From Niabella sp. (GTDB lineage: Bacteria; Bacteroidota; Bacteroidia; Chitinophagales; Chitinophagaceae), in the NCBI GenBank assembly GCA_017744795.1, contig JAGIAQ010000039.1, positions 1 to 34,869 of the forward strand: a stretch of DNA of 34,869 nt, given 5' to 3'. Positions within the stretch are counted from its first letter, which is position 1. Each line of letters starts with the position of its first letter. Shown piece after piece: positions 8,771 to 16,584 of the stretch. The position numbers were made by a program, and so were the translations under genes. The notes beneath the pieces are model-generated. The model saw nothing but the letters and a program-made list of their open reading frames with translations. It was not told the DNA's origin and searched no databases.

Positions 8771-8778
8771 TATCTTTG
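8771..8778 (+). promoter_or_regulatory. -7 element of the aromatic operon
   Basis: TATCTTTG fits TANNTTTG and ends 10 nt before the leader-peptide ATG, the same spacing as at lipB. Transcription would therefore start just ahead of the leader ORF, as expected for an attenuated operon. Confidence 0.6.
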
Positions 8779-8788
8779 GCACTCATTT

Positions 8789-8872
8789 ATGAAGTCAACA
8801 AGATTCTATACCTGGTTTTATTTTAGCTTTTTCTTTTTTGGAGCAAAGCCGGGCTCGCTTTTGTTGAAGTAA
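8789..8872 (+). CDS. Aromatic-rich leader peptide of the attenuator
   Basis: A 27-codon ORF (ATG at 8789, TAA at 8870-8872) is too short for ordinary gene finding. Residues 5-17 read RFYTWFYFSFFFF: seven Phe, two Tyr and one Trp, with 10 of the 12 residues from 6 to 17 aromatic. The tail is GAKPGSLLLK. It lies between a -7 box and an intrinsic terminator, ahead of seven genes that make aromatic amino acids. That is the signature of an attenuation leader, whose translation speed reports charging of tRNA-Phe, tRNA-Tyr and tRNA-Trp. The codons for A-K-P-G (8844-8854) also contain the RNA segment that competes with the terminator. The peptide itself probably has no function. Confidence 0.87.
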   Translation: MKSTRFYTWFYFSFFFFGAKPGSLLLK

Positions 8873-8915
8873 TTTAAATAAAATAAAATAACTCAGAATA
8901 AAAGAAGATCCCGGC
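8848..8915 (+). promoter_or_regulatory. Candidate antiterminator pairing
   Basis: GCCGGG at 8848-8853, inside the leader ORF, is complementary to CCCGGC at 8910-8915, the 5' arm of the terminator. After one mismatch, TC (8855-8856) can also pair with GA (8907-8908). The leader segment duplicates the terminator 3' arm, so the two structures exclude each other. A ribosome stalled on the aromatic codons upstream would leave this pairing free to form; a ribosome reaching the stop codon at 8870 should disturb it. A weak earlier hairpin (GCTTT 8826-8830 with AAAGC 8845-8849) may act as the 1:2 stem. Confidence 0.7.
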
Positions 8916-8937
8916 GAAGAAGGCCGGGATTTTTTTT
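8905..8937 (+). terminator. Attenuator terminator upstream of pheA
   Basis: ATCCCGGC (8908-8915) and GCCGGGAT (8923-8930) form eight perfect pairs around the loop GAAGAAG, with A/U and G.U pairs extending the base, and are followed by a run of T to 8937. It ends 25 nt before the pheA ATG, so its only sensible role is to stop transcription before the operon. Confidence 0.9.
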
Positions 8938-8962
8938 AACCCAATTGTAAAATAGTGGCGGT

Positions 8963-9844
8963 ATGACCCCAAAAGAATCGGAAATAACAAAGGATATTGT
9001 CAGTGGCCTGGTGGCAGAAGGGCCTGTTGCTATTCAGGGCTTCGAAGGAAGTTTTCACCAGATGGCAGCAAGATTCTTTTATGGTAAGGAAACCGAAGTG
9101 CTCTGCTGTAGTACCTTCCGGGATGTTATAGACGCGGCGAAGGATAAAAAAAGAACTGATGGCTGTATCATGGCCATCGAGAATTCAATTGCAGGAAGTA
9201 TTTTACCCAATTACAACCTGATCCAGAAAAGTAACCTGCATATTGTTGGGGAGATCTACCTGCAGATCAATCAGAACCTGCTGGTGAATCATAACGTGGA
9301 ACTGGAAGATATTAAAGAAGTGCATTCGCACACGATGGCATTACAGCAATGTTATGATTACCTGGATCAATACAAGTGGAAGCTGGTAGAGTCGGAGGAT
9401 ACGGCTTTAAGTGCAAAGCATATCGCCCAGTACAAATCGATACATACAGCAGCGATCGCTAGCTCATTGGCTGCTGAATTGTTTGACCTGAAAATGATCG
9501 CTCCGAAGATCCAGACGCAAAAAAATAACTATACGAGGTTTATTGTTTTGAAACGGCCGGAAGACGTACCGGGCACACAAACGGGCAATAAGGCATCTAT
9601 TAATTTTCAAACGGTGCACAAAGAAGGCAGCCTGGCAAGGGTATTGGGCGTTATCGCCATACATAAAGTAAACCTTACCAAATTACAAAGCTTTCCGATT
9701 CCCGGGTCGGAGTTTAAATACCAGTTTCATGCAGATATGGAGTTTGACAATCTGCTCTCCTTTGAACGGGTCATCGAAAAAATGAAACCCTTAACGGAGC
9801 AGATAAAAATTTACGGAGTTTACAATAAAGGTTTATGGAAGTAG
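8963..9844 (+). CDS. pheA: Prephenate dehydratase
   Basis: The 293-residue enzyme converts prephenate to phenylpyruvate, the committed step to phenylalanine. The catalytic domain shows VAIQGFEGSFHQMAA near the start, IMAIENSIAG, and the active-site motif NNYTRF with Thr191-Arg192-Phe193. Residues from about 205 form an ACT domain (ASINFQTVHKEGSLARVLGVIAIHKVNLTKLQS), the usual site of Phe feedback inhibition. There is no fused chorismate mutase, unlike the enterobacterial PheA; the mutase is carried on the DAHP synthase three genes downstream. The gene is first in the operon, 25 nt after the attenuator, and its last 10 bp overlap the next gene. Confidence 0.95.
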   Translation: MTPKESEITKDIVSGLVAEGPVAIQGFEGSFHQMAARFFYGKETEVLCCSTFRDVIDAAKDKKRTDGCIMAIENSIAGSILPNYNLIQKSNLHIVGEIYLQINQNLLVNHNVELEDIKEVHSHTMALQQCYDYLDQYKWKLVESEDTALSAKHIAQYKSIHTAAIASSLAAELFDLKMIAPKIQTQKNNYTRFIVLKRPEDVPGTQTGNKASINFQTVHKEGSLARVLGVIAIHKVNLTKLQSFPIPGSEFKYQFHADMEFDNLLSFERVIEKMKPLTEQIKIYGVYNKGLWK

Positions 9845-10992
9845 CAAAAAGATTACAGGGCGTGGGCGAATACTATTTCTCAAAAAAGCTGAGGGAAATA
9901 GATGCGTTGAATCAGCAGGGAAAAAATATCATCAACCTTGGTATCGGTAGTCCTGATCTGCCGCCGCATCCGGACGTGATCAAAGTATTGCAGGAAGAAG
10001 CGCAAAAGCCCAATGTGCACGGCTACCAGAATTATAAGGGGAGCCCGGTTTTGCGAAAAGCCTATGCCAGCTGGTATCAACGCTGGTACGGTGTAATATT
10101 GGATCCTGAAACCGAGATCCTGCCGCTGATCGGAAGCAAAGAAGGCATCATGCATATTTGCATGACCTATCTGAACGAAGGGGATAAGGCATTGGTGCCC
10201 AACCCCGGCTATCCTACTTATGCCAGCAATGTAAAAATAGCGGGCGGTGTTACTGTTACTTATGAACTGAATGTGGAGCATAACTATCAGCCCAACCTGG
10301 AAGCGCTGGAAGCAAGTGACCTGACAGGTGTTAAGCTTTTATTCGTTAACTATCCGCAAATGCCCACCGGGCAGCAGCCGGATCTTGCAGTATTTGAGAA
10401 GCTGGTCGCCTTTGCAAAAAAACACGGTATACTCATCATACATGACAATCCGTATAGCTTTATTTTAAATGATCATCCCATCAGCTTTTTGAGTATTGAA
10501 GGTGCGAAAGAGGTGGTGATCGAGCTTAACTCTCTAAGCAAATCGCATAATATGGCTGGCTGGCGCCTGGGCGTGCTGGTGGGTGCGGCAGACCGTATCA
10601 ACGAAGTGTTGCGCTTTAAAAGCAATATGGACAGCGGTATGTTCCTTCCGCTGCAACTGGCAGCAGCAAAGGCTTTAACGCTGGGCAAAGAATGGCATGA
10701 TGAAGTAAACGCAGTATATCGCGAGCGACGCGAAAAAGTATATGAACTGTTGGATCTCCTGGATTGCCGGTATGCAAAAGAGCAGGTGGGTTTGTTTATG
10801 TGGGCTGCCATTCCTGCAACCTACAAAGACGGATACGCACTGGCGGACGATATTTTATATAATGCCAATGTGTTTATTACTCCTGGTGGCATTTTTGGCA
10901 ATGCCGGTGATCAGTATATCCGCATTAGTTTGTGCGGGTCAACAGAACGGTTTGAAGAAGCGATCAAAAGAGTAAAGGAAATAAAGCAATAG
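9835..10992 (+). CDS. PLP-dependent class I/II aminotransferase, probably aromatic
   Basis: This 385-residue fold-type I aminotransferase has the N-terminal IDALNQQGKNIINLGIGSPDLPPHP and the PLP-lysine motif SLSKSHNMAGWRLG with Lys236. NPGYPTY and the C-terminal RISLCGSTERF (substrate-carboxylate Arg) also fit the family. Sequence flavour resembles LL-diaminopimelate and aspartate/aromatic aminotransferases, so the substrate cannot be assigned by sequence alone. Placement between pheA and tyrA, with a 10-bp overlap with pheA and 4 bp before tyrA, argues that it transaminates phenylpyruvate and 4-hydroxyphenylpyruvate, the last step to Phe and Tyr. The overlap suggests translational coupling. 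Confidence 0.88.
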   Translation: MEVAKRLQGVGEYYFSKKLREIDALNQQGKNIINLGIGSPDLPPHPDVIKVLQEEAQKPNVHGYQNYKGSPVLRKAYASWYQRWYGVILDPETEILPLIGSKEGIMHICMTYLNEGDKALVPNPGYPTYASNVKIAGGVTVTYELNVEHNYQPNLEALEASDLTGVKLLFVNYPQMPTGQQPDLAVFEKLVAFAKKHGILIIHDNPYSFILNDHPISFLSIEGAKEVVIELNSLSKSHNMAGWRLGVLVGAADRINEVLRFKSNMDSGMFLPLQLAAAKALTLGKEWHDEVNAVYRERREKVYELLDLLDCRYAKEQVGLFMWAAIPATYKDGYALADDILYNANVFITPGGIFGNAGDQYIRISLCGSTERFEEAIKRVKEIKQ

Positions 10993-10996
10993 TTTA

Positions 10997-11848
10997 ATGA
11001 GCGATCGAAAGCGCATAGCAATTATTGGGGTCGGATTGATCGGCGGATCAATGGCATTACAGTTACACGAAAAGAAACTGTCGACGAAGCTGATAGGGGT
11101 GGATGCCAACCCGGAACATGCTGCGCAGGCGCTGGAATATGAGCTGGTAGATGAATTGCTGCCGCTTGATGAAGCAATTGCTGCAGCGGAAGTTATTGTG
11201 CTGGCCATACCGGTAAATAAAATGGTAAGCCTGTTGCCCCAGGTGCTGGATCGGGTAACGGATCAGATCGTCTTCGACATGGGATCCACAAAATCCGCAT
11301 TGATCGAGGCGGTGAAAGAACATCCTAAACGCGGGCGCTATGTGGCTACGCATCCGATGTGGGGTACAGAGTACAGCGGCCCCAAAGCCGCTCAGCGCGG
11401 AGCCTTTGAAGGGAAGGCAGTAATTCTGTGCAATGCTAATGAGTCAGATCCGGATGCCCTCGACTGGATAAAAAAAATGTATTCTAAAATTGGGATGCGC
11501 CTGGTGGAAATGGAAGCTAAAGCTCATGACCTGCACGTGGCCTATGTGAGTCATATCTCACATATTACTTCCTTTGCACTGGCCAATACGGTTTTGGAAA
11601 AAGAAAAAGTGGAGAGCGCTATCTTTGAAATTGCATCGGCGGGTTTCGAAAGTACCGTGCGCCTGGCAAAGAGCAACCCGGAGATGTGGGTGCCCATCTT
11701 CCTTCAAAATAAGGAAAATGTGATCGATGTGCTCACCGAGCATATTGAGCAGCTCACGAAATTTAAAGAATCGATACAGTCCAATGACAGCAAGGGTTTG
11801 CAGGCATTGATCGATGATGCTAATAAAATAAAACGAATCATCAAATAA
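10997..11848 (+). CDS. tyrA: Prephenate dehydrogenase
   Basis: The 283-residue protein begins with an NAD-binding Rossmann motif (IAIIGVGLIGGSMA) and carries ATHPMWGTEYSGP, the family's conserved active-site stretch with a His, and SHISHITSFALA. It oxidatively decarboxylates prephenate to 4-hydroxyphenylpyruvate, the Tyr branch. The length fits a monofunctional TyrA with a helical dimerisation domain and no ACT domain, so feedback control may come from elsewhere. The start lies 4 bp after the aminotransferase stop; 16 bp separate its end from the next gene. An arogenate dehydrogenase activity cannot be excluded. Confidence 0.93.
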   Translation: MSDRKRIAIIGVGLIGGSMALQLHEKKLSTKLIGVDANPEHAAQALEYELVDELLPLDEAIAAAEVIVLAIPVNKMVSLLPQVLDRVTDQIVFDMGSTKSALIEAVKEHPKRGRYVATHPMWGTEYSGPKAAQRGAFEGKAVILCNANESDPDALDWIKKMYSKIGMRLVEMEAKAHDLHVAYVSHISHITSFALANTVLEKEKVESAIFEIASAGFESTVRLAKSNPEMWVPIFLQNKENVIDVLTEHIEQLTKFKESIQSNDSKGLQALIDDANKIKRIIK

Positions 11849-11864
11849 TTAATAATTTAAAAAA

Positions 11865-12956
11865 ATGAAAACGGCTGAAATGACGGATAAAGAAAGAACA
11901 CAACAGGTATGGGCAAAACGCCCGATCGTGATCAGCGGACCCTGCAGCGCTGAAACGGAAGAACAGGTAGTTGAAACGGCTAAACGCCTTGCTGCTACCG
12001 GAAAAGTAGATGCTTTACGTGCTGGTATCTGGAAACCACGTACCAAGCCAGGTATGTTTGAAGGCATTGGCGCCAAAGGATTGCCCTGGTTGCAGGCTGC
12101 AAAAAAAGCAACAGGCTTGCCTACCGCTATTGAAGTGGCAACCGCTAAACAGGTAGAGGACGCTTTAACGTTTGATGTGGACATTCTCTGGATCGGCGCG
12201 CGTACCACGGTAAACCCGTTCAGCGTTCAGGAAGTAGCAGATGCGCTCCGGGGTGTTGATGTGCCTGTACTGGTGAAAAACCCCATCAACCCCGACCTGG
12301 AATTGTGGGGCGGCGGCGTAGAGCGTATTGCACGTGCAGGTGTTAAAGACATTGGGCTGATCCACCGCGGATTCTCGTCTTACGGAAACACGCAGTTCCG
12401 GAACGCGCCCATGTGGCACCTGGCTATTGAAATGAAGCTGCGTTACCCTGAGCTGCCGATCATCAATGATCCTTCGCATATCTGCGGAAACCGCGATGGC
12501 CTGTTTGATGTGGCGCAAAAAGCCATCGACCTGGATTATGATGGGGTTATGATCGAATCGCATATTGATCCGGATAATGCCTGGAGCGATGCCAAACAGC
12601 AGATAACTCCGGAACGTTTAAAGGAAATGCTGGAAGCGATCGTATGGAGAAAAGAAAGTAAAGATAATTCCCAGCTGCAGGGCGGACTGGAAAAATTACG
12701 TCAGCAGATCAATCACCTGGATGATGAAATGCTGCAGATCCTGTCTCAGCGGATGAAGATCGCCGATAAGATCGGTCAGTATAAAAAAGAAAACAACCTC
12801 ACCATTTTACAAACCAACCGATGGCAGGAAATTTTAGATAAAATGATGGCCAAGGGTGAGAAGCTGGGATTGAGCAAAGATTTCATTATGAAATACCTGG
12901 ATGCTGTGCATTTGGAGAGCATCAATCATCAGAAAAATGTGATGGACGCCTCTTAG
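11865..12956 (+). CDS. Bifunctional DAHP synthase / chorismate mutase (AroQ type)
   Basis: The 363-residue fusion has a DAHP synthase domain of the KdsA-like (type I-beta) group at residues about 15-262: ISGPCSAE with the metal-ligand Cys27, AGIWKPRTKPG, GARTTVNPFSVQ, LVKNP, NDPSHICGNRD and MIESHIDPDNAWSDAKQQ. Residues from about 272 form an all-helical AroQ chorismate mutase (LEKLRQQINHLDDEMLQ, RMKIADKIGQYKK). It therefore catalyses the first step of the shikimate pathway and the chorismate-to-prephenate step. In such fusions, prephenate binding to the mutase domain can inhibit the synthase domain, so allostery may add to transcription attenuation. The residues expected for both activities are visible. 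Confidence 0.95.
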   Translation: MKTAEMTDKERTQQVWAKRPIVISGPCSAETEEQVVETAKRLAATGKVDALRAGIWKPRTKPGMFEGIGAKGLPWLQAAKKATGLPTAIEVATAKQVEDALTFDVDILWIGARTTVNPFSVQEVADALRGVDVPVLVKNPINPDLELWGGGVERIARAGVKDIGLIHRGFSSYGNTQFRNAPMWHLAIEMKLRYPELPIINDPSHICGNRDGLFDVAQKAIDLDYDGVMIESHIDPDNAWSDAKQQITPERLKEMLEAIVWRKESKDNSQLQGGLEKLRQQINHLDDEMLQILSQRMKIADKIGQYKKENNLTILQTNRWQEILDKMMAKGEKLGLSKDFIMKYLDAVHLESINHQKNVMDAS

Positions 12957-12970
12957 TTCATAGTTTGATA

Positions 12971-13023
12971 GTTCATAGATCATAGTTCATGGATCATAGC
13001 GCCATGAACTATGATCTATGAAC
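12971..13023. repeat. 22-bp perfect hairpin built from 7-bp units, between DAHPS/CM and aroB
   Basis: Arms 12971-12992 and 13002-13023 are perfectly complementary over 22 bp around the 9-base loop ATCATAGCG. The sequence on both sides is made of near-identical 7-mers (AGTTCAT, AGATCAT, AGTTCAT, GGATCAT). No T-tract follows, and the operon continues 17 bp later, so it is not an obvious terminator. In RNA it would be a very stable AU-rich stem that could mark a processing site or adjust aroB expression. Confidence 0.8.
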
Positions 13024-13039
13024 CATGAACCTTTTATAA

Positions 13040-14101
13040 ATGGAAAAAATAATAAAGTTCTCCAACGCGGCGACAAACTTTTATTTCGCCGCCGGCTTTA
13101 GTAAGCTGAAAGAGATCGCTGATAAAAAGGCAGCGGTGGTCATTACAGACGAGCATATTTTTAATGCGCACAGCCGTAAATTCAGCGGGTGGAAAACCAT
13201 GGTATTAAAACCAGGCGAGCAATATAAGGTGCAGGCTACTGTTGATAATGTGATTCAGCAATTGATCGGGCTGCAGGCGGACCGTAAAACGACCTTGATC
13301 GGAGTTGGCGGCGGTGTAATTACCGATATTACCGGGTACATTGCTTCCGTTTATATGCGGGGGCTTCGGTTTGGATTTGTTCCCACGTCTATCCTGGGTT
13401 TAGTGGATGCTTCTATCGGCGGTAAGAACGGCATCGATGTTGGCCCGTATAAAAATATGGTAGGCGTTATCCGGCAGCCGTCCTTTATCTTGCATGATAT
13501 GAGCCTGCTCAATTCGCTGCCGCAACTGGAGTGGGAAAATGGTTTTGCAGAAGTGATCAAACATGCCTGTATTAAGGATGCCTCCATGTTTGCAGCACTC
13601 GAAAAGAATTCGTTAGAAGATTATCAAAGCCGTAAAAAAACGATCTCTGAATTAGTGCAGCGGAATGCATTGATAAAGATCCGGGTGGTGCAAAAGGATG
13701 AGTTTGAAAAAGCCGATCGCCGTTTGCTGAACTTTGGGCATACCCTTGGCCATGCGATAGAAACGCAATACAACCTGATCCATGGCCATGCCATTAGCAT
13801 TGGTATGGTAGCAGCCTGCCGCATTTCAGAACAGCTGACTGGCTTTAAACAAACAGACCGTGTGATAAAACTTTTAGAAAAGTACAACCTGCCAACGCAC
13901 CTGGATTTTGATCTCCGAAAGGTTTTTGAGGTATTAAAAATGGATAAAAAGCGGGAGCTGAAAACAATGAATTTTGTGCTGCTGGATAAGATCGGTAAAG
14001 CGGTAGTACAGGCGATTCCCATGAAGCAACTGGAGCAGCTTATTACGGGTTTGAATCAGAAATCAGAAATAAAAAAATCAGAAATCAGAAATAAAAAATG
14101 A
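13040..14101 (+). CDS. aroB: 3-Dehydroquinate synthase
   Basis: The 353-residue enzyme makes 3-dehydroquinate from DAHP using NAD and a divalent metal, the second shikimate step. Motifs: GVGGGVITDITGYIAS (NAD loop), FVPTSILGLVDASIGGKNGID, KNMVGV, GFAEVIKHACIKD, and the metal ligands in FGHTLGHAIE and HGHAISIGM. The last 15 or so residues (QKSEIKKSEIRNKK) are not family sequence; they are encoded by two exact copies of a 22-bp repeat. The stop overlaps the aroA start in ATGA, so the two are probably translationally coupled. aroD/aroQ (dehydroquinase), aroE and aroK are not in this window. Confidence 0.95.
   Translation: MEKIIKFSNAATNFYFAAGFSKLKEIADKKAAVVITDEHIFNAHSRKFSGWKTMVLKPGEQYKVQATVDNVIQQLIGLQADRKTTLIGVGGGVITDITGYIASVYMRGLRFGFVPTSILGLVDASIGGKNGIDVGPYKNMVGVIRQPSFILHDMSLLNSLPQLEWENGFAEVIKHACIKDASMFAALEKNSLEDYQSRKKTISELVQRNALIKIRVVQKDEFEKADRRLLNFGHTLGHAIETQYNLIHGHAISIGMVAACRISEQLTGFKQTDRVIKLLEKYNLPTHLDFDLRKVFEVLKMDKKRELKTMNFVLLDKIGKAVVQAIPMKQLEQLITGLNQKSEIKKSEIRNKK
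14054..14097 (+). repeat. Two exact 22-bp tandem repeats at the aroB/aroA junction
   Basis: Copies at 14054-14075 and 14076-14097 are identical; each contains ATCAGAA twice followed by an A-rich run. The second copy ends at the base before the aroA ATG (14098). The repeat encodes the AroB C-terminal tail. Because 22 is not a multiple of 3, loss of one copy would move the AroB stop. Confidence 0.9.
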
Positions 14102-15441
14102 GGGTCACCATACATCCTTCTCAGTTGTCGGGTTCAATTTATGCCCCGGCTTCCAAAAGCTCCATGCAGCGGGCCTGCGCGGCGGCATTATTGGCTACTT
14201 CAAAAGTTGTGATCACCAATCCCGGTCACAGCAATGATGATAAAGCGGCGCAGGGGATCATAAAGGCGCTGGGTGCATCGATTACAAAAATTGATGCCGA
14301 TACTATTGAAATCGAAAGCGCATTCCTAAAAAACCCCGAGGGCATTCGGTCCAAAGAGGATGCTGTTAATTGTGGAGAAAGTGGTTTGAGCATCCGTATG
14401 TTCACGCCCATCGTTTCGTTATGTACAAATAGGGTTACCATTAATGGCGAAGGCAGCCTGGTAACACGCCCGATGGACTTCTTTGACCAGGTATTGCCGG
14501 GGCTGGATGTGGCCATCACTTCCCATAACGGTAAATTACCCCTGAAGGTAACGGGGCCGCTGCAGGCGAAAAATATTACGATCGACGGATCGTTGAGCTC
14601 ACAATTCCTTACCGGTTTATTGATGGCCTTCAGTGTGGCGCCCATCGCAGAACCGGTTATCATCAAGGTAACGGATTTGAAAAGCAAACCTTACATCGAT
14701 CTTACCTTGAATGTAATGAAACAGTTTGGGATGAACGTTCCTGAGAATAAGAATTATGAGGAATTTGTGTTCACAAAACCAGAAACCAGAAACCAGAAAC
14801 CAGAAACGATTAACTATACTGTTGAAGGCGACTGGAGCGGCGGTGCTTTCCTGTTGGTGGCAGGAGCGATAGCTGGTAATATACATGTGCGCGGATTGCA
14901 GCAAGGCAGCACCCAAGCCGACAAAAAGATCCTGGAAGCACTGATGGCCGCAAATGCAGGTATAGCAATGGATGCAAAGGGCATTACGTTACATGCGGCG
15001 CCCTTAACGGCTTTTGAATTTGACGCAACCGACTGTCCGGATCTGTTTCCTCCCCTGGTGGCGCTGGCTGCAAATTGCAAAGGCGTTACTTCGGTAAAAG
15101 GGGTAAGCCGGCTGGCGCATAAGGAAAGCGACCGGGGGCTGACCTTGCAGGAAGAATTTGGAAAGATGGGGATTAAAATAGACCTGGATGGTGACTGGAT
15201 GCGCATTCACGGAGGCCCGGTAAAAGGGGCTGTTGTACATTCCCGGCATGATCATCGTATTGCGATGGCCTGCGCTACTGCGGCGTTGAAAGCAGAAGGA
15301 ACCACTACGATTGAAGAAGCCCAGGCGATCAATAAATCGTACCCCGATTTTTATGATCATTTAAAACAGCTGGGGGCTACCGTTGAAGACGGGATCAATT
15401 ATATCGATTCATTAAAACAAACTTTTTCAGGTAACGAATAG
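14098..15441 (+). CDS. aroA: 3-Phosphoshikimate 1-carboxyvinyltransferase (EPSP synthase)
   Basis: The 447-residue enzyme adds the enolpyruvyl group of PEP to shikimate-3-phosphate. Conserved pieces: ASKSSMQRA (the family's SKS/R block), NCGESGLSIRMF (the PEP-site loop, here divergent from the common LGNAGTAMR), SLSSQFLTGLL, TDCPDLFPPLVALAA with catalytic Asp312, HKESDR with the Glu, and HDHRIAMACA. The divergent PEP loop may be a lineage trait. Residues about 227-237 (KPETRNQKPET) are encoded by four exact CCAGAAA units and look like an insertion on a surface loop before NYTVEGDWSGG. The start overlaps the aroB stop by 4 bp. A 150-bp gap follows before aroC. Confidence 0.94.
   Translation: MRVTIHPSQLSGSIYAPASKSSMQRACAAALLATSKVVITNPGHSNDDKAAQGIIKALGASITKIDADTIEIESAFLKNPEGIRSKEDAVNCGESGLSIRMFTPIVSLCTNRVTINGEGSLVTRPMDFFDQVLPGLDVAITSHNGKLPLKVTGPLQAKNITIDGSLSSQFLTGLLMAFSVAPIAEPVIIKVTDLKSKPYIDLTLNVMKQFGMNVPENKNYEEFVFTKPETRNQKPETINYTVEGDWSGGAFLLVAGAIAGNIHVRGLQQGSTQADKKILEALMAANAGIAMDAKGITLHAAPLTAFEFDATDCPDLFPPLVALAANCKGVTSVKGVSRLAHKESDRGLTLQEEFGKMGIKIDLDGDWMRIHGGPVKGAVVHSRHDHRIAMACATAALKAEGTTTIEEAQAINKSYPDFYDHLKQLGATVEDGINYIDSLKQTFSGNE
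14779..14806 (+). repeat. Four exact CCAGAAA units inside aroA
   Basis: Four consecutive perfect copies of a 7-bp unit lie in the coding sequence. Four copies total 28 bp, and the current number keeps the frame open; one copy more or fewer would shift it. Confidence 0.9.
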
Positions 15442-15496
15442 AAGCGGGTGCGGCCAACAGGTGCATCGCAACGTTTGTGACCAGTGTTCTGTTAAT

Positions 15497-15568
15497 CGTG
15501 AAATGTCATCCCGATAGTTATCGGGAGTGAAACGTGAGGGGGGTGCGTTTGTCGTCTCACGTTTCACG
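15497..15568. repeat. Hairpin cluster between aroA and aroC
   Basis: TCCCGATA (15509-15516) and TATCGGGA (15519-15526) form one palindrome, a motif often seen between Bacteroidota genes. Immediately after, GTGAAACGTGAG (15527-15538) pairs perfectly with CTCACGTTTCAC (15556-15567). CGTGAAA at 15497-15503 could pair with the same 3' arm instead, so two alternative folds exist. A CTCAAAT doublet follows at 15570-15583. Confidence 0.7.
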
Positions 15569-15591
15569 ACTCAAATCTCAAATCATAAGTT

Positions 15592-16584
15592 ATGAATTCG
15601 TTCGGGCAATTATTCAGAGTACAAATATTTGGTGAATCACACGGGGAATGCGTGGGAGTGGTACTGGACGGTATTCCCGCAGGTCTTCCGGTTCCGGTAG
15701 AAGATTTTTTGCCTGATATGGAACGCCGGAAAGGGGGTACTCAAAAAGGAGCCACGCCAAGAAAAGAGGATGATATCCCCATTTTTAAAAGCGGTGTTTT
15801 TAATGAAAAAACCACTGGCTTCCCGGTGATGATCTATTTTGAAAATAAGAATACCCGTAGCGGCGATTATGAAAAATTAAGAAGTTTCCCACGCCCCGGC
15901 CACGCAGATTTTGTTGCCCATAAAAAATTCGGAGGTTTTGAAGATTATAGAGGAGGGGGGCATTTTAGCGCCCGTTTGACAACGGGTCTGGTTGCTGCCG
16001 GCGTTATCGCAAAAAAATTACTGAAGAACATTGCTATCGACGCTACCATCATAGAAATTGGCGGTGACCCGGATACGGAACGTGGCCTTCAGAAGGCCAT
16101 CGACGCAAAAGATTCTGTAGGCGGGCTGATCGAATGTCGCGTGAAAGGCTTGCCGGTGGGCTTGGGAGAGCCTTATTTTGATTCGGTGGAGTCGCTGCTG
16201 GCGCATATGTTGTTTACGATCCCCGCCGTTAAAGGGGTGGAGTTTGGCAGCGGCTTTGCGGCTGCAAAGATGTTTGGCCTGCAGCACAACGATCCTATTG
16301 AAAATATGGATGGAAAAACATCCACCAATCATGCGGGCGGTATCGTTGGAGGCATCACCAATGGTAATGAATTGGTTTTTCGCATTGCCATAAAACCAAC
16401 AGCTTCCACGCCTAAACCGCAACACAGCCTGAACTGGGAAACCGGCCAGATGGAAGATTTTTCCGTGAAAGGGCGTCATGACCTTTGTGTGGCCCTGCGC
16501 GCGCCGGTGATCGTGGAGGCCGTAACGGCTATTGTGTTGGCCGATCTGATGCTGCAGGCGGGTCTTATTTCCCGGGTACTTTAA
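15592..16584 (+). CDS. aroC: Chorismate synthase
   Basis: The 330-residue flavoenzyme converts EPSP to chorismate with reduced FMN. Family signatures: the N-terminal FGQLFRVQIFGESHGECVGVVLDGIPAG, then RRKGGTQKGATPRKEDD, RPGHADF with RGGGHFSARLT, GFAAAKMFGLQHND, TSTNHAGGIVGGITNG and KGRHDLCVALRAPVIVEA. The length is slightly shorter than many AroC proteins (about 350-360), missing only a variable C-terminal tail. It closes the run of aromatic genes. It may share the operon transcript or have its own start, because the preceding 150-bp gap contains hairpins but no clear promoter. Confidence 0.95.
   Translation: MNSFGQLFRVQIFGESHGECVGVVLDGIPAGLPVPVEDFLPDMERRKGGTQKGATPRKEDDIPIFKSGVFNEKTTGFPVMIYFENKNTRSGDYEKLRSFPRPGHADFVAHKKFGGFEDYRGGGHFSARLTTGLVAAGVIAKKLLKNIAIDATIIEIGGDPDTERGLQKAIDAKDSVGGLIECRVKGLPVGLGEPYFDSVESLLAHMLFTIPAVKGVEFGSGFAAAKMFGLQHNDPIENMDGKTSTNHAGGIVGGITNGNELVFRIAIKPTASTPKPQHSLNWETGQMEDFSVKGRHDLCVALRAPVIVEAVTAIVLADLMLQAGLISRVL

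Follow-up and report, generated by a model that had tools for sequence, protein, structure and literature searches.

The region upstream of pheA in a Niabella-like member of the Chitinophagaceae very probably (at roughly 90%) carries a classical ribosome-mediated transcription attenuator, one that would sense charged tRNA-Phe and tRNA-Tyr and control the genes of the Phe/Tyr branch as well as those of the common aromatic pathway. The DNA analysed, referred to here as the window, is a stretch of 34,869 nt from Niabella sp. An attenuator of the ribosome-mediated type was proposed in a preliminary description of the window, and the comparison of genomes strongly supports this with regard to the open reading frame (ORF), the terminator and a co-varying antiterminator, the support being thinner outside the family; the part of the proposal that concerned tryptophan does not stand. 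The argument is built on the parts themselves, their conservation, the conservation of an RNA motif independently of reading frame, co-variation and spacing, all of which can be seen in the sequences. The leader ORF is predicted to be translated, and read-through into the operon would be expected to shift with the supply of phenylalanine and tyrosine.

The leader is followed by a series of genes on the plus strand, while lipB lies upstream of it on the same strand. The first structural gene is pheA, encoding prephenate dehydratase (8963–9844; PRK11899, E 2.2e-57, and PRK11898, E 4.9e-55, both below the curated cut-offs). Next are a PLP aminotransferase resembling LL-DAP-aminotransferase (9835–10992, also below curated cut-offs), tyrA, encoding prephenate dehydrogenase (10997–11848; PRK08507, 353.8 bits, above cut-off), and a DAHP synthase fused to chorismate mutase (DAHPS/CM; 11865–12956, below curated cut-offs). 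Three further genes have matches above cut-off: aroB, encoding 3-dehydroquinate synthase (13040–14101; TIGR01357), aroA, encoding EPSP synthase (14098–15441; TIGR01356), and aroC, encoding chorismate synthase (15592–16584; TIGR00033). Gene order and spacing suggest that the six genes from pheA to aroB and aroA are co-transcribed, and aroC is only a possible member of the same transcript.

Two of the gaps between these genes contain inverted repeats, which bear on where the transcript may end. The gap between DAHPS/CM and aroB (12957–13039) holds a long inverted repeat of TTCATAG-like units with a folding energy of -37.1 kcal/mol, and that between aroA and aroC (15442–15591) holds two, CCCGATAGTTATCGGG and one with GAAACGTGAG arms.

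The elements named in the preliminary description are real and lie far above chance expectation. A -7 box of the Bacteroidota sigma-A type, TATCTTTG, is present on the plus strand at 8771–8778 and ends 10 nt before the ATG of the leader ORF. The ORF has 27 codons (8789–8872, with the ATG at 8789 and a TAA ending at 8872) and encodes the peptide MKSTRFYTWFYFSFFFFGAKPGSLLLK. Codons 6–17 make up the Phe/Tyr run, and 10 of residues 6–17 are F, Y or W, just as had been described. When the 550 nt upstream of pheA were subjected to dinucleotide shuffling, 10 aromatic residues in 12 were never obtained in 2000 shuffles, and 8 were reached in 36 of them. The hairpin and T-run reported at 8905–8937 were also recovered, as an intrinsic terminator composed of AAGATCCCGGC, a loop and GCCGGGATTTT with a T tail, seen both in the fold and in the family alignment; its stem extends to 11 bp once A-T pairs are counted, at -17.9 kcal/mol. 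Folding of the leader region yields a strong T-ended hairpin (z -2.5 and -2.2).

The antiterminator in the window would be formed by two segments. Segment 2 (8848–8867), the 5' arm, consists of GCCGGG and an extension ending in TTTTGTTGA; segment 3 (CTCAGAATAAAAGAAGATCCCGGC, 8892–8915) is the 3' arm, and its end doubles as the 5' arm of the terminator. The two complementary hexamers singled out earlier, GCCGGG at 8848–8853 and CCCGGC at 8910–8915, are thus both in place, the second of them being the terminator 5' arm. The minimum free energy of the antiterminator is -19.5 kcal/mol, compared with the -17.9 kcal/mol of the terminator. Segment 2 is also predicted to pair with the upstream leader, with a probability of 0.998, in a bipartite arrangement. 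Segment 1a (TCAACAAGA, 8795–8803), which lies early in the leader ORF, pairs in the minimum-energy fold with TTTTGTTGA at 8859–8867, and segment 1b (CCTGGTTTT, 8811–8819), within the aromatic codons, pairs with AAAGCCGGG at 8845–8853 in a putative protector hairpin.

The comparison started from PheA matches in 103 of 147 family genomes and 41 of 149 class genomes, together with 8 named loci; genomes in which PheA has no match at E 1e-20 (44 of 147 in the family, 108 of 149 in the class) are excluded from the counts. Three of the 41 class matches belong to family members already counted, and two more were left out, one being partial and the other the weakest. The set comprises 147 regions that reach at most 550 nt upstream from pheA, 109 from Chitinophagaceae and 38 from other Bacteroidia (two Alistipes among them), and counts over these regions ignore relatedness, as some loci may come from the same or near-identical species.

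With a strict cut of 8 or more F/Y/W in 12 residues, 98 of 109 pheA regions from Chitinophagaceae and 17 of 38 from other Bacteroidia have a leader (115 of 147 overall). The same cut is passed by 2 of 147 reverse strands and by 0.37% of 2940 shuffles; among 44 regions ahead of hisG, trpE, ilvB and aspartokinase genes, one passes it. A laxer cut of 6 or more in 12 admits 132 of 147 regions, but also 8.2% of shuffles and 13 of 147 reverse strands; with an ATG start it retains 105 of 109 family regions and 25 of 38 others, and these 130 leaders are the basis of the later counts. Since 8.2% of shuffles pass the laxer cut, some of the 130 may be chance matches, mainly outside the family. By the laxer rule no leader is found in 4 of 109 family regions and 13 of 38 others, and one of these four family regions has a clear leader that starts with GTG.

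A covariance model of the leader built from the family (R1) was searched in 16 genomes of the same genus and nine from other families of the order. It gave one strong match in 15 of the 16, each beside pheA (E 1.8e-17 in the window's own genome), and none in the sixteenth, which is 74% complete. No second copy of the leader was found, the next same-genus matches among those listed having E > 0.005. In the nine genomes from other families the best matches are weak, at 7e-4 and up. Judged from these comparisons, the leader is kept throughout Chitinophagaceae, and part of the class Bacteroidia also has it. The comparison of pheA upstream regions that had been suggested for this family supports the attenuator reading: besides the F/Y-rich ORF, it recovers the T-tailed hairpin and co-varying pairings, which are set out below. 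Well outside the family, two Alistipes MAGs have an F/Y leader and a matching antiterminator before pheA.

The 12-residue core averages 5.4 Phe, 3.4 Tyr and 0.18 Trp across the 130 leaders. In 123 of 130, the best 12-residue stretch holds two or more Phe as well as two or more Tyr. The codons in the run are TTT (495) and TTC (202) for Phe and TAT (220) and TAC (218) for Tyr, so that third bases vary freely. Read in frame 0, the run is 41% Phe, 29% Tyr and 0.5% Leu (the aromatic total is inflated, as the run was picked for F/Y/W), whereas Leu makes up 50% of frame 2 in the same DNA. Because frame 0 is nearly free of Leu and frame 2 is half Leu, these sequences indicate that selection acts on the Phe/Tyr meaning of the codons and not on T-richness.

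The leader had been put forward as an F/Y/W leader, and sensing of all three aromatic amino acids would fit the single Trp (W9) of the window peptide and the occurrence of one Trp in the best 12 residues of 23 of the 130 leaders. Two Trp, however, are never found in that stretch, 107 of 130 leaders have none in it, and a separate WWW leader stands before trpE in 10 of the 10 same-genus loci looked at. Trp sensing by the pheA leader was rejected on these codon counts and on the separate Trp leader, and a sensor of all three amino acids is highly improbable. Phe and Tyr are upheld, and Trp appears to be incidental, so the earlier 'F/Y/W' should read 'F/Y'.

The promoter of the leader is unusually close to the ORF. 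In 77 of 105 family leaders a perfect TAnnTTTG ends 4–10 nt before the leader ATG, as opposed to 6 of the 844 remaining ATGs in these regions; the distance from box to ATG is 7 nt in 34 family leaders and 4 nt in 10. Aligning the regions on the -7 box reveals an upstream TTTG of the -33 type and an A-tract, neither of which was searched for. Since the box has been placed at -12 to -5 relative to the transcription start site (PMC9723704), the predicted 5' UTR is 0–6 nt; in the window the start site would lie near 8783 and the 5' UTR would be about 6 nt. Such a near-leaderless start would be unusual for the phylum, given that 5' UTRs in F. psychrophilum have a median length of 24 nt and that 5.5% of its mRNAs are leaderless (PMC9723704). 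Outside the family, none of 25 leaders has a perfect box 4–10 nt before the ATG, and in 11 of the 25 a box lies 15–35 nt away. The near-leaderless start, predicted for Chitinophagaceae and absent from the preliminary description, would be the most distinctive trait of the system.

On the 3' side of the aromatic run, the RNA motif of segment 2 is often GCCGGGAATGCTTTTGTTGA, and its partner ahead of the terminator is TCAACATAAAGAATCCCGGC or similar (alignment A1, 67 of 85 eligible family rows). Another lineage has the motif GCCGGGTTGTATTTGC with the partner CAGCATACAGTCCCGGC or CAACATACAGTCCCGGC. A CCGGG-type motif is located in 109 leaders, in frame 0 in 57, frame 1 in 15 and frame 2 in 37, at least three of these calls (all in frame 1) being wrong upstream matches; no motif of the listed kinds is found in 21 of 130 leaders. 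Because the motif falls in all three frames, the ends of the peptides differ while the RNA is kept. This suggests that segment 2 is kept as RNA regardless of reading frame.

The terminator and antiterminator both show co-variation. In the family alignment, 6 of 9 consensus pairs of the terminator have undergone two-sided change at least once. For the antiterminator, the CCGGG motifs of the two lineages are not in one register in the wider alignment (A2, 80 of 94 eligible rows), and for this reason a permutation test and a comparison of own with consensus arms were used instead of pair counting. The duplex between a leader's own segment 2 and arm averages -13.6 kcal/mol, compared with -11.06 (sd 0.18) when arms are permuted among species, and none of 5000 permutations is as low, although these controls do not correct for relatedness. 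In the 42 of 111 leaders without CCGGG, the own arm beats the consensus arm in 25, is worse in 6 and is within 0.5 kcal/mol in 11. Antiterminator and terminator are of similar strength (mean energies -18.9 and -17.3 kcal/mol, n = 96), and at least five pairs between segment 2 and the arm are found in 90 of 96 antiterminator folds.

Pairing of segment 2 with the leader has a mean probability of 0.72, compared with 0.46 in codon-shuffled leaders (higher in 104 of 109) and 0.62 after synonymous resampling (higher in 87 of 109), which gives moderate support to a protector (1:2) hairpin. The spacing of the parts is also constrained. The distance from the last aromatic codon to the motif is 8–12 nt in 97 of 109 leaders, and that from the motif to the stop codon is 0–23 nt in 99 of 109, with a median of 17. 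Given the usual footprints, stalling at an aromatic codon would keep segment 2 clear of the ribosome, and a ribosome at the stop codon would be on or against segment 2 in most leaders.

The features by which an attenuator is recognised are found together: a short ORF rich in codons for the operon's own product; a promoter upstream of it, marked by the -7 box and a predicted start site; an intrinsic terminator between the leader ORF and pheA, present in the window and as a T-tailed hairpin in 111 of 130 leaders (the other 19 have no hairpin that passes the strict T-tail rule); and a mutually exclusive antiterminator with co-variation, by controls that ignore relatedness. It might instead be supposed that lipB or antisense transcription simply ends at the hairpin and that the ORF arises incidentally from T-rich DNA, given that the region is AT-rich and that a simple scan listed the hairpin on the minus strand only. 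A conserved promoter, however, stands between lipB and the hairpin, so that with a plain terminator the operon would be shut off by its own hairpin, and T-richness alone would yield Leu as in frame 2, not Phe and Tyr. The frame shifts of the motif, the co-variation and the spacing also need a switch, and a plain terminator is very improbable.

In the attenuator proposed, transcription would start 0–6 nt ahead of the leader AUG, and a ribosome would load at or near the 5' end of the RNA without a Shine-Dalgarno sequence. These bacteria are not known to use Shine-Dalgarno sequences. When Phe-tRNA or Tyr-tRNA is scarce, the ribosome would stall in the aromatic run, presumably covering segment 1 and halting before segment 2, which begins 8–12 nt past the last aromatic codon in most leaders. 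Free segment 2 would then pair with segment 3, and the pathway genes would be read through. When both tRNAs are charged, the ribosome would continue to the stop codon, at or immediately past segment 2; with segment 2 blocked, no antiterminator would form and the terminator would end transcription near 8937. If the leader is not translated, segments 1 and 2 would pair, making termination the default.

Sensing might conceivably not involve tRNA charging. TnaC is a nascent-peptide or small-molecule arrest switch, and a switch of that kind might operate here. The short RNA or peptide might also act in trans, as reported for rnTrpL and peTrpL of Sinorhizobium. Termination would release a discrete mRNA about 155 nt long that is nearly leaderless, and such a case has been described (PMC7298713). 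Against either role, the C-terminus of the peptide is wholly different between lineages (KPGMLLLK, SSRVVFAKA, SRECFC) although the RNA is conserved, and F and Y replace each other among leaders. Arrest or action in trans in place of tRNA-charging sensing is thus very unlikely, and an additional trans role beside the sensing of charged tRNA-Phe and tRNA-Tyr may exist.

Leaders are also found before other amino acid genes in the genus. The loci looked at were 15 of 18 for hisG, 10 of 16 for trpE, 9 of 20 for acetolactate synthase and 10 of 24 for aspartokinase, the best full-length ones being chosen; the window's own hisG match is partial and was left out of the leader count. Upstream of trpE, a WWW leader is present at 10 of 10 same-genus loci, for example MNFVKNNNWWWHNNAFGVL. 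Its -7 box lies 5–6 nt before the ATG, or 8 nt before a second ATG in one case, and in two of the ten there is a further box 19 nt away. The Bacteroid-trp model RF01692 matched none of 60 Chitinophagaceae genomes under strict filters that lose weak matches, and the WWW leaders possibly form an unmodelled Trp leader family. Upstream of hisG, all 13 same-genus loci have a HIHHH or HTHHH leader, for example MKILVHIHHHFADLPM, with the -7 box 7–8 nt before the ATG in 12 of 13 and, in the thirteenth, 7 nt ahead of an in-frame upstream ATG. A T-tailed hairpin follows the His leader in the two sequences inspected, and at two hisG loci from other families the His-containing ORFs are more divergent.

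A Thr/Ile-rich ORF of the TTTTTTIITT type precedes a long aspartokinase gene (about 820 aa), presumably a fused thrA, at 9 of 9 same-genus loci. These ORFs have no -7 box within 30 nt, and the ORF is absent at the one aspartokinase locus from another family. Before ilvB, the rule finds no leader at any of 9 same-genus loci, a weak result, as ilvB need not head its operon. The window's own genome carries both a Trp leader and a Thr/Ile-rich ORF. With fair probability, Chitinophagaceae have a set of attenuators (Phe/Tyr, Trp and His) whose mRNAs begin at the leader AUG or no more than about 6 nt before it and use leaderless-type initiation; the pheA member would sense both Phe and Tyr on behalf of the entire pathway and would have relatives in further Bacteroidia families.

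Such a system would offer a concrete mechanism for the control of aromatic amino acid synthesis in a phylum whose promoters are unusual and which makes no use of Shine-Dalgarno sequences. The combination of frame-independent conservation with a near-leaderless start would make it a natural system for ribosome loading and coupling to RNA polymerase with almost no 5' UTR. Short leader peptides of this kind would escape the usual gene calling. The Phe/Tyr leader of Bacteroidota appears to be a classical type newly described, and its sensor family has hardly been described before.

A likely counterpart has been reported. In F. psychrophilum, structured 5' elements lie upstream of pheA and hisG, are present in other Flavobacteriaceae and match no Rfam family; the same study notes hints of attenuation by leader peptides ahead of amino acid operons (PMC9723704). 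The pheA element resembles the window leader in gene, phylum and possession of a structured 5' element; the main text gives no sequence, peptide or mechanism, and the comparison is one of descriptions only (PMC9723704). The two are likely the same element, and leader-peptide attenuation may explain what was reported without a mechanism. The preliminary description had taken the system as a candidate for an undescribed one, which is only partly right, as a structured 5' element at pheA is already on record (PMC9723704). Beyond this report, no description of a Bacteroidota Phe/Tyr leader was recognised in the literature searched, which covered few subscription journals.

Rfam has no gathering-level match in the window. 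Membership of RF01859 (Phe_leader) was rejected, the score of 31.2 bits (E 0.0015) being below the gathering threshold of 55, and the likeness is one of analogy only. The pheA leader of E. coli and other proteobacteria has a Phe-rich peptide, alternative hairpins and a terminator, followed by pheA, and the window shares this layout. It differs in that Tyr codons almost match Phe codons in constancy across its leader family, that tyrA and pathway genes follow, and that there is probably almost no 5' UTR. RF01692, likewise rejected with no window match at its gathering threshold of 49 bits, is a described Trp leader element of Bacteroidetes (PMC2864571, PMC6414381); it is similar in being an amino-acid leader element of this group (PMC2864571), but it stands upstream of trp genes (PMC6414381). 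The near-leaderless start has a precedent in the alphaproteobacterium Sinorhizobium meliloti. There, the transcript of the trpL attenuator is leaderless, starting at the leader ATG, but trpL is a Trp leader (PMC7298713), unlike the Phe/Tyr leader of the window.
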